Shown piece after piece: positions 21,500-42,014 of a DNA stretch of 64,000 bases; the stretch's first letter is position 1, and each line of letters opens with the position of its first letter. The DNA is from Arcticibacter svalbardensis MN12-7. Lineage in GTDB: Bacteria; Bacteroidota; Bacteroidia; Sphingobacteriales; Sphingobacteriaceae. The notes under the pieces were generated by a model. That model was given only the letters and a program-made list of their open reading frames with translations. It was not told the origin of the DNA and made no database searches. A program made the translations under genes and the position numbers. The DNA is taken from assembly GCF_000403135.1 (NCBI RefSeq), contig NZ_AQPN01000143.1, positions 1-64,000 on the forward strand, in the 5' to 3' direction.

Positions 21500-21891
21500 A
21501 TGATGAAAATTAATCAGATTGATGACAATCAAACTCGGCGTGTGATCCTATTTTTTTATAGTGTCGGATTTTTGATTGGAACCTCTACCCATTTATATAA
21601 TATAATAGTTAGTGGCTTTTTATCAATATCCCCTGTGTGCCTTGGTACATAAATCTTTACTGGGACAGCCTAACCCTTTTTGATCTCTTTGCTTCGATAT
21701 TAATTTGGTTTAAATTGAAGCAAGGTCTTCTTCTCGCAATTGCAATTATGGCCACTGATATAATAATAAATACTTACTCTTATTTATCCGGTTGGTTGGG
21801 TGACATTGTATCGGCCATGGTTCCTGTAGGACTCCTAATGCAATCAGTTTTTGGAACCTTTGTTTTTGTTACCGCCACTTTGTTTTATTAA
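21500..21891 (+). pseudogene. Frameshifted four-TM membrane protein
   Basis: From ATG 21500 one frame encodes a helix (ILFFYSVGFLIGTSTHLYNI) and reaches a stop after SISPVCLGT. A second frame, overlapping at about 21635, continues naturally with PWYINLYWDSLTLFDLFASI, a further helix pair and IIINTYSYLSGW. The two parts together look like one membrane protein of about 130 residues with four helices, split by a single frameshift. The downstream frame alone (21637-21891, 84 residues) is what remains open. Function is unknown. It fills the interval between repeat copies 1 and 2. Confidence 0.6.
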
Positions 21892-35987: not shown

Positions 35988-37478
35988 TTACTTATTTAAC
36001 GATTTCTGCTGATTCGTGGTATGTGGTCTGCTTGAAAGAAAAAGAAGGAAATAAGTAATCAATCCATTGATCACGATCAGTTCAAATCCAATGGTATATC
36101 CCGTAAGCAAGAAGGAATATTTATCTATCACGAAGGAGATAATGGGTGACAAAATACAAAAGAAAGGAACCAGTTTATCCTTCACATCGCGTTTAGAGAT
36201 CATTCCAAAACTGAACAGACCAAGTAGCGGTCCGTAGGTATACCCTGCCGCTTTAAAAATAGAGTTCACAACAGAGTCGTCATTAATAATTTTAAATAAT
36301 AATACAACGAGCAGCATGATGACTGAAAACACCACATGGACCAGATGACGAGTGCGGATTAAGCGTGGATCATTCTGGTTGGCTGATTTATTAAAACTTA
36401 GAAAGTCTACACAAAATGAAGTGGTTAGAGCGGTTAATGCAGAGTCCGTGGTGGCAAATGTAGCTGCCGTAAGGCCTAACATAAACACGATTGCCGGCAG
36501 AGTGCCTAAATAGTTCAGGGCAATTTCGGGAAACAGGTGATCGGGAGTAGCCAAAGCGGAAACATTGATTCCTTTCGCCTCTGCGTAGATATAAAGTAAA
36601 GCACCTACACTTAGGAAAAAGATGTTCATGACCACGAAGACCGCAGTAAAGGTTAACATATTCTTTTGTGCCTCGCCTATATTCTTACAGCTCAGATTCT
36701 TTTGCATCAGATCCTGATCCAAACCTGTCATCGCAATGGTCACAAATACACCACCTAAAAATTGCTTGATAAAGTGATTCTTACTGCCAAAGAAATCTTC
36801 CCAAAAGAAGATCTTGGAATAAGAACTATTTTTTACGGTTTCAAAGGTTTGTGTGATATTCAGATCGAGACTTTTGGAAATAAAGTAGATCGACAATATC
36901 ACAGAGGAAAGCAGAAATACCGTTTGCAGGGTATCTGTAATAATGATCGTCTTTAGTCCGCCTTTAAAGGTATATGACCAGATTAACACTAAACAAATGG
37001 CTATAGTAACCCAAAATGGCACATTCCAGGCATCAAAAATAAACTTCTGCAATACAATAGCGACCAGGTATAAGCGAAACGCAGAGCCAATAGTGCGGGA
37101 GACCAGAAAGATCATCGCGCCTGTTTTATAGCTCCAATGTCCCAGTCTGTTTTCCAGATACGTATAGATAGAAACCAGGTTAATCCGGTAATATAAGGGC
37201 AACAGCACCGTAGCGATCAGAATAAAACCAACCGCATTGCCGAGTACAAACTGAAAGTACCCGAAACTACTATTGATAACTGCACCGGGAACGGAAATAA
37301 AAGTAACGCCAGATAAGGCGGTACCGATCATTCCAAAGGCAACAAAATACCATTTTGAGTTCCTGTTGGCAATAAAAAAGCTTGAATTATCAGATGATCC
37401 CCTGGATGTAAAATAAGAAACAGCGATTAGAACAGCAAAATAACCTATAAGAAAAGATAAAAGGACTATTGGAGACAT
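35988..37478 (-). CDS. Sodium:solute symporter (SSS family), candidate MurNAc transporter
   Basis: The 496-residue inner-membrane protein has about 13 hydrophobic helices and SSS features (GTALSGVTFISVPGAV near residues 52-67, SLGATFAT-like LTAATFATTDSALTALTT). It imports small solutes with Na+. It lies 8 bases downstream of murQ, an arrangement like the MurT-MurK-MurQ module described in Tannerella forsythia, where MurT is a MurNAc transporter. MurNAc or another murein-derived sugar is the most likely substrate, but this is inferred from context. Confidence 0.85.
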   Translation of the reverse strand: MSPIVLLSFLIGYFAVLIAVSYFTSRGSSDNSSFFIANRNSKWYFVAFGMIGTALSGVTFISVPGAVINSSFGYFQFVLGNAVGFILIATVLLPLYYRINLVSIYTYLENRLGHWSYKTGAMIFLVSRTIGSAFRLYLVAIVLQKFIFDAWNVPFWVTIAICLVLIWSYTFKGGLKTIIITDTLQTVFLLSSVILSIYFISKSLDLNITQTFETVKNSSYSKIFFWEDFFGSKNHFIKQFLGGVFVTIAMTGLDQDLMQKNLSCKNIGEAQKNMLTFTAVFVVMNIFFLSVGALLYIYAEAKGINVSALATPDHLFPEIALNYLGTLPAIVFMLGLTAATFATTDSALTALTTSFCVDFLSFNKSANQNDPRLIRTRHLVHVVFSVIMLLVVLLFKIINDDSVVNSIFKAAGYTYGPLLGLFSFGMISKRDVKDKLVPFFCILSPIISFVIDKYSFLLTGYTIGFELIVINGLITYFLLFLSSRPHTTNQQKSLNK

Positions 37479-37486
37479 AATTTGTT

Positions 37487-38293
37487 TTATTTGAAAGAGG
37501 CTTCAATTGCTTTGCGTACACTTCCATACTTGAGTAGTAATTCTGCGGCAGTAGGTTGTTCTGTACCTGTTTCTTTCATAATGATCTTGATGCCTCGTTC
37601 AACCAACTTTTTGTTAGTGAGTTGCATGTCCACCATTTTATTTCCATGCACCCTACCCAGTTGAATCATTACACTGGTACTTAACATATTCAGAACAAGT
37701 TTCTGTGCGGTACCGGATTTCATACGGGTAGAACCGGTAAGAAACTCAGGACCAACAACAACTTCTATTGGAAATTTAGCTTCCGCAGCAACCGGACTCC
37801 CTGAATTACATACAATACAGCCGGTTATTATATTATGCTCATTGGCTTTCCTGAGTCCGCCAATAACATAAGGAGTTGTACCCGATGCAGCTAAACCTAT
37901 CAGAACATCATCCTCATTGATATGAAATTCTTTCAGATCAAGCCATGCCTGATCGAAATCATCTTCTGCAAATTCGACAGCTCTACGTATTGCGGTATCA
38001 CCACCAGCAATAATTCCGACGACCCAATCGAAGGGTACGCCAAAGGTTGGCGGACATTCGGAGGCATCCAATACGCCTAAACGACCGCTTGTACCAGCAC
38101 CGATATAAAACATTCTACCTCCAGACTTCATTTTCTCGGATGCAGCCTCAGCAAGGCGTTCGATTTGAGGGATTACTTTTTCAACAGCACGAGGGACAGT
38201 TTGGTCCTCGTTATTTATATTTTCGAGGATTTCTCTGACTGACATTGCTTCCAGATTATTATAATCCGAATCCTTCTCTGTTATTCTTTCCAT
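37487..38293 (-). CDS. murQ: N-acetylmuramic acid 6-phosphate etherase
   Basis: The 268-residue cytoplasmic SIS-domain lyase converts MurNAc-6-phosphate to GlcNAc-6-phosphate and D-lactate. It shows the family opening MERITEKDSDYNNLEAMSV, the sugar-phosphate loop YIGAGTSGRLGVLDASECPP and FLTGSTRMKSGTAQKLVLNM. ATG 38293 gives the canonical N-terminus. It is the diagnostic gene of MurNAc catabolism. It needs phosphorylated substrate, so a MurNAc kinase must exist elsewhere because none is visible here. The symporter gene follows after 8 bases. Confidence 0.95.
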   Translation of the reverse strand: MERITEKDSDYNNLEAMSVREILENINNEDQTVPRAVEKVIPQIERLAEAASEKMKSGGRMFYIGAGTSGRLGVLDASECPPTFGVPFDWVVGIIAGGDTAIRRAVEFAEDDFDQAWLDLKEFHINEDDVLIGLAASGTTPYVIGGLRKANEHNIITGCIVCNSGSPVAAEAKFPIEVVVGPEFLTGSTRMKSGTAQKLVLNMLSTSVMIQLGRVHGNKMVDMQLTNKKLVERGIKIIMKETGTEQPTAAELLLKYGSVRKAIEASFK

Positions 38294-38391
38294 TCTATAC
38301 ACGTATTAACTGTAGCGCTTATTTTATTAATCAATTATAAAGATTTTTCATCTGTTTAAATGTAAGATGAATCAATCAAAATTTTTTATCC

Positions 38392-40084
38392 TTATTGTCC
38401 GGCACCAAAGTGGTACTGTTCAGATACTGTAACCGGTAAAGTTCCTTTAGGAACTAAATCACCTTGTATAAAACGTAAAGCCGTTTCTTGCATCAGGTCA
38501 TCATCCTCATAACAAATAACCAGATTTTTTGTATCCGGAAAGTTACTAATCAAATAAGGATTACCAAATACAAAACTATATACATTTTCTTGTTTACTCA
38601 GGGCATTAAAAAGGTTAATTCCTTCCATACTTACACCAAAGTTTGCAGATGGATATTTCTTATACTGATGAATGCCTAAAATGACAACATCGTACTGGGT
38701 ACCAAGGATGTTCATCAAACTATCAGCAGAACCAGGCCCTGCAGTATAGTTCAGAAAGTAGCTATCTGCATTAAAATTGTCTTTAAGTAAGGTAGCAAAA
38801 TGGTTGTTCTTACTCAAGCCAATACCCACATAAGCAATCCTTTTACCTTGCAGGGAATCAAGCAAGAGCGGATTATCGTTTCGCAGTCGGGTTAATGCAT
38901 GGGCATATACCTCTTTTTTTTAATGCAGTGGTATGCGCATTCAGATCAGCAGCCAAAGAAATGGTATCTATTTTATGTACCTGACTTAATCCCAGGTTAT
39001 ACTTAGCCAGTAAAACACGGTTCACCTTTTGATCGATATCATCCCAGCTTTGTCTTTTCCGTCGGATTGACTTTCTTACTTTTTCAATATTTTCTTCGAC
39101 ATCCCCGGGAAGGCATAACATATCATTTCCGGCAATTAAGGAAAGCACACTAGCTTCTCCTTTAGGGAAATATTTGGCTACCCCTTTCATCTCCAGTGCA
39201 TCGGTAAACGTGAGACCTTTGAAACCAAGATCATGGCGCAGCAGTTTGTTGACATTATTGGGTGATAAGGATGTTGCCCGGTTTGCTGTACTATCTATTG
39301 CCGGAATATACAAATGCGCCACCATGACACTACCAACACCCTCCCTGATCAATGCTTTAAAAGGAAAAAGTTCAAGTTCATCGAGCTGCGCAAACGACTT
39401 CATAATAACAGGCAAGTCGAGGTGAGAGTCAACGGATACATCGCCATGGCCTGGGAAATGTTTAGCACAGGCCATAATGCCATTGTCCTGCATCCCGCGC
39501 ATGATGCTGCCTCCAAAGGAAGCAACCTTATATTTATCTTCGCCAAAGGACCTGAAGTTGATAACCGGATTGGCCGGATTATTATTGATATCAACCACGG
39601 GGGCGTAATCGACCTGAATGCCGATCCGTTTGCATTGTGCAGCAATAGTTTGACCGGTTTTATAAGCAATTGCCGGATCTTGAACCGCTCCTATTGTTAA
39701 CTGATCGGGAAAGGAAATCACATCTGAAAATCGCATACCGAGTCCTGTTTCTCCATCAACACAAACCATCAGGGGTGTCTTTGCTTTTTGTTGAAGGGTA
39801 TTGATCAGTAGGGCCTGTTGCAACGAAGTACCCTGAAAGAGACATACCGAGCCGATGTTATACTTACGAATATAACGGAGCACGTCTTTCTCAAAAAACT
39901 CAACTCCTTTTGTGCTTCGGGTAGAAGTACGAATGACCATTAACTGTGCGATCTTCTGTCGTCTGGATAGTTTTTTCAATGTGCTATCCGCCCAATGTTG
40001 CGATTGAGGAGTTACTTCCAGAAAACGCTGTGCATATAATCCTGTAGAGGATAATAGGAAAGCGATGATAATTAGTTTTTTCAT
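38392..40084 (-). pseudogene. nagZ: GH3 beta-N-acetylhexosaminidase (NagZ-like), frameshifted into two frames
   Basis: The N-terminal frame (38873-40084) has a signal peptide ending LYAQ and a GH3 barrel with the NagZ-specific KHFPGHGDVSVDSH loop (His213, Asp215 region). The nucleophile Asp295 is in FTDALEMKG. It hydrolyses GlcNAc-MurNAc linkages. At an A8 run (plus-strand T8 at 38914-38921) it shifts to RGICPCINPTAKR and stops. Reading with one base fewer gives KKEVYAHALTRLRNDNPLL and runs into the second frame (38392-38865), a GH3 C-terminal domain (LLDSLQGKRIAYVGIGLSKN). One indel restores a protein of about 563 residues. It may be a real frameshift, slippage expression or a sequence error. 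The start overlaps the upstream stop by ATGA. Confidence 0.82.
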
Positions 40085-41937
40085 TTGTATTTCAGACTTA
40101 CAATTTTGCCATCCATGGTACTCATCAGTACTGCATTTTTTCCAAAAGGCAACATTGGATTAACTAAAGCATTCGAACTTTTGTATTGCCATACGACTTC
40201 CCCTGTCTTACTGTTTATGGCAGAAGCCAGTCCCGCATGACTAGGCACATAGATTAAGCCTTTACGTTCAACAATTGCAGAAGGACTTAGTTCGTATGGC
40301 AATTTCAGGGCAGACTTAAAGCTGATTTTCAAAGAGTCGGCTTTGGTAGAAACGCCAAAAAGCTGACCATCCATGGTTTTCACATATACTCGTTTACCGT
40401 TTGAAGAGATGCCCATCGATTCGCGGACTCTGCCTTCTTTCATTTTCTGTCGCCATATAACCATTCCGGTTTGGGCATCAAGAGATGTCATATACTGATC
40501 AGGAGCAACAATAAATATTCTTCCATTTGAGGCTACAGGATAACAGGCCGCGGGTGAATACATTCGACTCGCTGCACCATTATTCCATTTCCATTGCAAG
40601 ATCCCTGTTTTTATATTCAGGGCATAAAAGTCATTCGCCCAACAGCCAAAATAAATCTTACCCTTGTAGATGAGCGGTTTGGTCACTACAAAACCTCTTA
40701 CTTCTTTGAAATCCCATAAAAGAGCACCTGTAATTAAGTTTAAAGCTCTGAAATGCCCATCAGAACTTCCAATATAAACCACATCCTTGTGGATCATTGG
40801 AGAGCCAAGAACAGCTTTTTGTGCTTCATACTTCCATATTAATTTCCCATTCAGAAGAGAAATGCAGTAGATGAAATTATCTGAAGAACCAGCAACTACA
40901 TGATCACCGGATATAGCTGGTGTAGAATACACCTTGCCACCTGTAGCAAAAGACCATTTAAGTTTTCCATCTTTTACATCAAGGGCATAAAGCTGTCCGT
41001 TTGTATTAGCGGCAACAACTAACCCTTTTCCAAGAGCCATACCACTTCCTATATCACTTTGGTCCTGATACTGCCATTGCTTTTTTACTTGCGGGTATTT
41101 GTCGTTGACTGCAAAAGAAGGTCGTGGATAGGCCTGAGTTGAGGATGCAAAATGATGATTCAGCATAGGTACCTCAAGCCACTGGCGTTGTGTGTTGATA
41201 AGAGGTTTCCGTTCTTCAAAAGTAGCTTTACCCTCTTTAATGGTTACTATATTATACCCTCCAATACTGTCTTTTGCACGAAGATTAGATCGCCCCATAA
41301 CCTGTGGAATTCCCTCAAAATTATAGAGATGGTTATTGTGACCATGTCCACATAGGAGTAACTGCACATTTCTCTTTTTAACCTTATCCAGGGCATCATA
41401 CCAGTTATTAAGCGATGAGTCCTGCGGATAATGGTTGATATAGATCAGTGGCATGGATGGATCTTTCATGTTGTTAAGAACAGAATCAAGCCATACTAGA
41501 TTTTCACGGGGTACTTGTCCCGGACTCATACGCATATTGGGACCTGAACTAGTCGCTGCAAATTGATACCCCCCTTTTATAAAGGCAAAAGTTTCTGATC
41601 CAAACACCTTACGGAATGAATTAGCACCACTTTCAGACCAGTTAGAATCATGGTTACCACCAACGACGTACCAAGGTTTATTGAGACTATCTAATATTTG
41701 ACGGGCAAGTTTTAATTCTGTATCAGCACCAAATTCAGTAATATCACCAGTAACCATGACAAACTCCAGAGCAGCATTTTCATTAATATCCTGAACTGTA
41801 CGGCGAAGATCTTCAGCTGCGGTACTATTTCCTATGTGGGTATCCGAAACAAAAGCAAACTGAACTGATTGTGCTAGAAGTACATTTTGTAAACCTATAA
41901 AAAGGAGGAAAAGAAATGCGATTTTAAAGATCTTCAT
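40081..41937 (-). CDS. Calcineurin-like phosphoesterase fused to a PQQ-type beta-propeller
   Basis: The 618-residue exported protein has a signal peptide ending LLAQ. A metallophosphoesterase domain (about 25-255) carries SDTHIG, VTGDITEFG, VGGNHDSNWSE and LCGHGHNNH. It is followed by PQQ-like repeats (LKWSFATGGKVYSTP, GKLIWKYEAQ, GALLWDFKEV, GILQWKWNNG) forming a propeller to the C-terminus. The substrate is unknown. Its position at the head of the nagZ-murQ operon, after the SusD terminator, suggests a phosphoester linked to cell-wall glycans. ATG 41937 (MKIFKIAF) is chosen for the signal peptide. Its TGA overlaps the nagZ ATG. Confidence 0.85.
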   Translation of the reverse strand: MKIFKIAFLFLLFIGLQNVLLAQSVQFAFVSDTHIGNSTAAEDLRRTVQDINENAALEFVMVTGDITEFGADTELKLARQILDSLNKPWYVVGGNHDSNWSESGANSFRKVFGSETFAFIKGGYQFAATSSGPNMRMSPGQVPRENLVWLDSVLNNMKDPSMPLIYINHYPQDSSLNNWYDALDKVKKRNVQLLLCGHGHNNHLYNFEGIPQVMGRSNLRAKDSIGGYNIVTIKEGKATFEERKPLINTQRQWLEVPMLNHHFASSTQAYPRPSFAVNDKYPQVKKQWQYQDQSDIGSGMALGKGLVVAANTNGQLYALDVKDGKLKWSFATGGKVYSTPAISGDHVVAGSSDNFIYCISLLNGKLIWKYEAQKAVLGSPMIHKDVVYIGSSDGHFRALNLITGALLWDFKEVRGFVVTKPLIYKGKIYFGCWANDFYALNIKTGILQWKWNNGAASRMYSPAACYPVASNGRIFIVAPDQYMTSLDAQTGMVIWRQKMKEGRVRESMGISSNGKRVYVKTMDGQLFGVSTKADSLKISFKSALKLPYELSPSAIVERKGLIYVPSHAGLASAINSKTGEVVWQYKSSNALVNPMLPFGKNAVLMSTMDGKIVSLKYK

Positions 41938-42014
41938 TGCAGGTATTTTTTTTAGAGTCAAATAGCAGTGTTACAAAAAAAGCATCTTTTTTTTACTATC
42001 TAACTAATATAAAA

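Follow-up and report, generated by a model that had tools for sequence, protein, structure and literature searches.

The genome of Arcticibacter svalbardensis MN12-7 contains a glycoside hydrolase family 3 (GH3) gene of NagZ type that, as assembled, is read in two frames, which raises the question of whether the break belongs to the strain or to its draft assembly. The gene lies in the window, the whole stretch of 64,000 nucleotides that was analysed (contig NZ_AQPN01000143.1), where it spans positions 38392-40084 of the minus strand, and its frame changes at a run of eight A's (T8 on the plus strand) at 38914-38921. The first-pass annotation of this DNA, made from the letters alone, had proposed a recent mutation, a slippage-regulated switch between enzyme forms of one and two domains, or a sequencing or assembly error.

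Around the run the coding strand reads GCA TTA AAA AAA AGA GGT. The frame is intact from 40084 to the run and lost beyond it. ORF 1 (38873-40084, minus strand, 403 aa, ATG start) comprises a signal-peptide-like N terminus and the GH3 catalytic domain, in frame up to the run (38922-40084), and then an off-frame tail (38873-38913) whose 13 residues, RGICPCINPTAKR, precede the stop and have no counterpart in relatives. The shifted frame is open from the run to a natural stop at 38392, giving 175 codons of the second GH3 domain (38392-38913); the preceding codon in this frame is a TAA that reaches into the run, and the list of open reading frames gives the frame as 38392-38865, from a TTG. This downstream coding frame is not a product of chance, since it is 49-57% identical to domain 2 of congeneric orthologs. 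A reading with seven A's joins both frames exactly into a continuous 563 residues, which align end to end with orthologs and are 74% identical to the nearest of them, found in the congener G003. Both parts are free of further stops and shifts. The first-pass annotation had thus located the frameshift correctly to the base, and its observations that removal of one base joins the frames and that neither part bears other damage are borne out. The lesion is a one-base length change at a homopolymer with coding sequence on both sides, as in a sequencing artefact.

The part of the gene preceding the run has the features of a NagZ-type GH3 enzyme, namely the N-terminal catalytic domain together with the loop and nucleophile motifs. 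ORF 1 matches PF00933 (GH3 N-terminal domain) over residues 42-358 with E 5.6e-78, its top curated model is that of NagZ-type beta-N-acetylhexosaminidase, with a score below the model's cut-off, and its solved relatives include YbbD/NagZ, the best ones being N-acetylglucosaminidases. Both KHFPGHGDVSVDSH and FTDALEMKG are located before the run; we take the former to be the KHFPGHG...DSH-type loop with the Asp-His dyad, and the latter to be the motif of the Asp nucleophile. Elsewhere in the same genome a paralog with both domains intact (G000:C76:23701) occupies a 596-codon frame and is 46% identical.

Close orthologs, defined as matches at E 1e-140 or better, were collected from 399 genomes of the family and numbered 25 including the gene of the window. 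The frame runs on to 563-1034 codons in 24 of them and stops, at 428, only in the gene of the window. A single-domain relative ending at the same place, which the first-pass annotation had named as evidence against a broken gene, was found in none of the 24, all of which continue. A wider collection yielded 80 loci, some of them truncated at the end of a contig; every one aligns through the junction without a change of frame, and 79 show no break. The exception, in a Ferruginibacter MAG (L049:2361-5291), is a NagZ-like gene split in the same linker, where an in-frame stop is followed 12 bases later by an ATG restart, leaving a stand-alone catalytic domain and a protein of domain 2 plus beta-lactamase; judged from its sequence, this split may be a natural fission or a base error. 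The congener G002 has no ortholog of the gene at E 1e-140, just a more distant paralog (47%). Another congener, G001, is 100% identical to Pararcticibacter amylolyticus FJ4-8 over 4,158 bp.

It is extremely improbable that the gene of the window has likewise evolved into two genes, with the second translated by reinitiation from the TTG at 38865. This codon does lie 7 bases past the ORF 1 stop, and the distant MAG offers one example of a stop and ATG restart at the linker, but a start at 38865 would lose 16 post-run residues that are kept in relatives, the break is a frame change and not a stop, and no relative in the family has such an arrangement.

The comparison of run length among relatives suggested with the first-pass annotation could be made at this site, which in near relatives usually encodes KK(E/D)VY. 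Among the closest relatives, the longest A run at this site is 3, 5, 3 and 3 in the four congeners that have an ortholog, and three other loci (L005, L006 and L014) carry A8 in frame in an intact gene. These site sequences indicate that lysine codons set the length of the run, which is not conserved as a switch. Slippage can occur on eight or more consecutive A's, and with one A fewer the frame would be whole again, so that transcription or replication slippage, or phase variation, might yield both a one-domain and a two-domain enzyme. This is nevertheless very unlikely, because neither the run nor the two-frame arrangement is conserved, the latter being present in no relative, A8 is tolerated in frame in three intact genes, and restoring the frame takes the loss of one base (+1), whereas the usual A-AAA-AAG ribosomal site shifts by -1. 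It is just as doubtful that the eight A's are real and variable in length within the population, toggling between one- and two-domain forms that differ in location or partner binding. The regulated switch proposed at first pass is therefore not upheld.

The published draft of A. svalbardensis MN12-7T was produced with Roche 454 FLX Titanium only, at 23x, using GS De Novo Assembler 2.8, and comprises 4.69 Mb in 151 contigs, with 4,659,080 bp (99.36%) above Q40 (PMC3709154). The assembly used here (G000) has 4,687,695 bases in 149 contigs. In a comparative paper MN12-7 is credited with 4257 coding sequences and A. eurypsychrophilus MJ9-5, of equal genome size, with 4086, which is in line with the presence of split genes but is not proof of it.

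The level of frame breaks was estimated from sampled stretches totalling 1.29 Mb in G000 and 1.12 Mb in two congeners. ORFs were compared between genomes by tblastn, and breaks were counted in the sequence covered by homologous ORFs. In this homology test 13 genes of G000 were broken, at 14 places, over 266 kb, as against a single gene of G002, broken twice, over 215 kb and no gene of G003 over 98.5 kb; the two congeners together have 2 breaks in 313 kb. Eight or more of the 14 can be recognised by eye as clear breaks, several of them at A or T runs, and include L213:425 (T5), L226:2920 (A4) and one in the window near 21630, by C4; part of the count may be due to genuine pseudogenes or to differences in start site. 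The resulting frequency in G000, approximately one per 20 kb, is close to the rate reported for 454 assemblies at about 20x, where an error occurred every 17,681 bp and 76% of the errors were in homopolymers (PMC3091684). The break in the window divides a second gene (21503-21885, plus strand), with the frame changing near 21630-21640; its homolog in G002, 87-94% identical, reads through, and from the sequence the split is probably an error of the same kind as that in the GH3 gene.

A second test used codon usage to detect a switch of frame across homopolymers at least six bases long, the sample being 0.89 Mb of G000 and 0.72 Mb of G002 and G003. It gave 22 switches in G000, which by eye are mostly gene boundaries, with four clear breaks and one more that is likely, and 11 in the congeners, none resembling a break. 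The clear cases are the GH3 gene of the window, L175:11188 at A8, L204:14045 at A6 and L208:7098 at T6. Pfam searches of the unmended pieces confirmed the break at L204:14045, which separates positions 1-32 of the GH95 catalytic profile from positions 31-408, and they support that at L208:7098, where a PAS domain is cut and the histidine kinase domain is in the next frame. At L183:5837 a GH9 and a polysaccharide deacetylase are found in neighbouring frames, and a break is likely, not certain. Taken alone, the excess in codon usage (four or five against none) is weak, and the homology test is the clearer of the two.

If the frameshift were a real mutation, it would have to be recent, given that the C-terminal part bears no mark of decay. 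The domain 2 branch of the window's gene in maximum-likelihood trees (0.32-0.33) is not longer than that of its sister from G003 (0.37-0.39), so relaxed constraint on this part is absent; for domain 1 the branch is slightly longer than in G003 (0.132 and 0.106). A recent one-base expansion of the run in the strain, leaving a 403-residue single-domain product, is unlikely. Homopolymer runs are mutable, the intact two-domain paralog could make the loss tolerable, and the stop and restart in the Ferruginibacter MAG show an interruption of the same linker. This reading is opposed by the preserved C-terminal part, the excess of indel breaks throughout the assembly and the uniqueness of the break among the 25 family orthologs. 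Were the mutation real, the truncated product would retain both the catalytic loop and the nucleophile motif and could be similar to single-domain NagZ; it might be active, given that single-domain NagZ enzymes are known and that the catalytic motifs precede the run.

Among the origins proposed in the first-pass annotation, it is error that gains from the 454-only draft and the genome-wide excess of breaks. The extra A is very probably a homopolymer-length base-calling error, an overcall, the likeliest reading because the assembly is a 454 draft with many such errors and because all close relatives have the gene in one frame. Two observations count against a miscall: coding runs in the codon-usage sample are in frame in 106 of 109 cases for A7 and in 24 of 26 for A8, which means that an eight-A run alone is not usually miscalled, and nearly all of the assembly is above Q40. 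Extrapolation of the break frequency suggests that the assembly likely holds a couple of hundred one-base indels. Split genes, pseudogenes and frameshifts claimed from it, those in the window included, should be treated as errors until resequenced.

With the overcall corrected, the real gene would carry seven A's and encode a single GH3 N-acetylglucosaminidase, 563 residues long with both domains and exported by a predicted signal peptide. It would sit in a putative muropeptide-salvage cluster (nagZ-murQ-symporter), being followed on the same strand by a gene for a murQ-like N-acetylmuramic acid 6-phosphate etherase (37487-38302) and one for a sodium:solute symporter (35988-37478). Upstream, a gene for a metallophosphoesterase / PQQ beta-propeller protein (40081-41961, minus strand) shares 4 bases with the start of the GH3 gene. 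Downstream, the neighbours and their order are the same in the nearest relative, G003 (murQ, symporter, FAD/Fe-S protein), and upstream G003 has the same metallophosphoesterase/PQQ protein, SusD and SusC with one gene more. The additional gene (L155:3148-4674), secreted and glycosidase-like, lies between susD and the metallophosphoesterase gene and is missing there in the window. No RNA family was matched near the break, a tRNA being the only RNA match in the window.

The break resembles the 454 homopolymer frameshift artefact (PMC3091684) in being a one-base change in an otherwise intact gene, and the frequency of such breaks in the assembly matches. Single-, two- and three-domain NagZ-like forms are all known in the lineage, the last having a fused beta-lactamase domain (PMC6987092). 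The catalytic domain is like that of Bacillus subtilis NagZ/YbbD (PDB 3bmx, 4gyj; residues 57-355, E 7e-56), which also has a second domain, but the assembled gene of the window changes frame between its two domains. The layout of most orthologs found is that of the three-domain Rhodothermus marinus RmNag3 (PMC6987092), with about 1000 residues and PF00933 plus PF00144. An example of the C-terminal beta-lactamase-family domain (PF00144) is L003:3944-6913, with which L083:946-2715 may be compared. Unlike RmNag3, the gene of the window, its ortholog in G003 and those of a few further lineages have no beta-lactamase domain, their sequence ending with domain 2.
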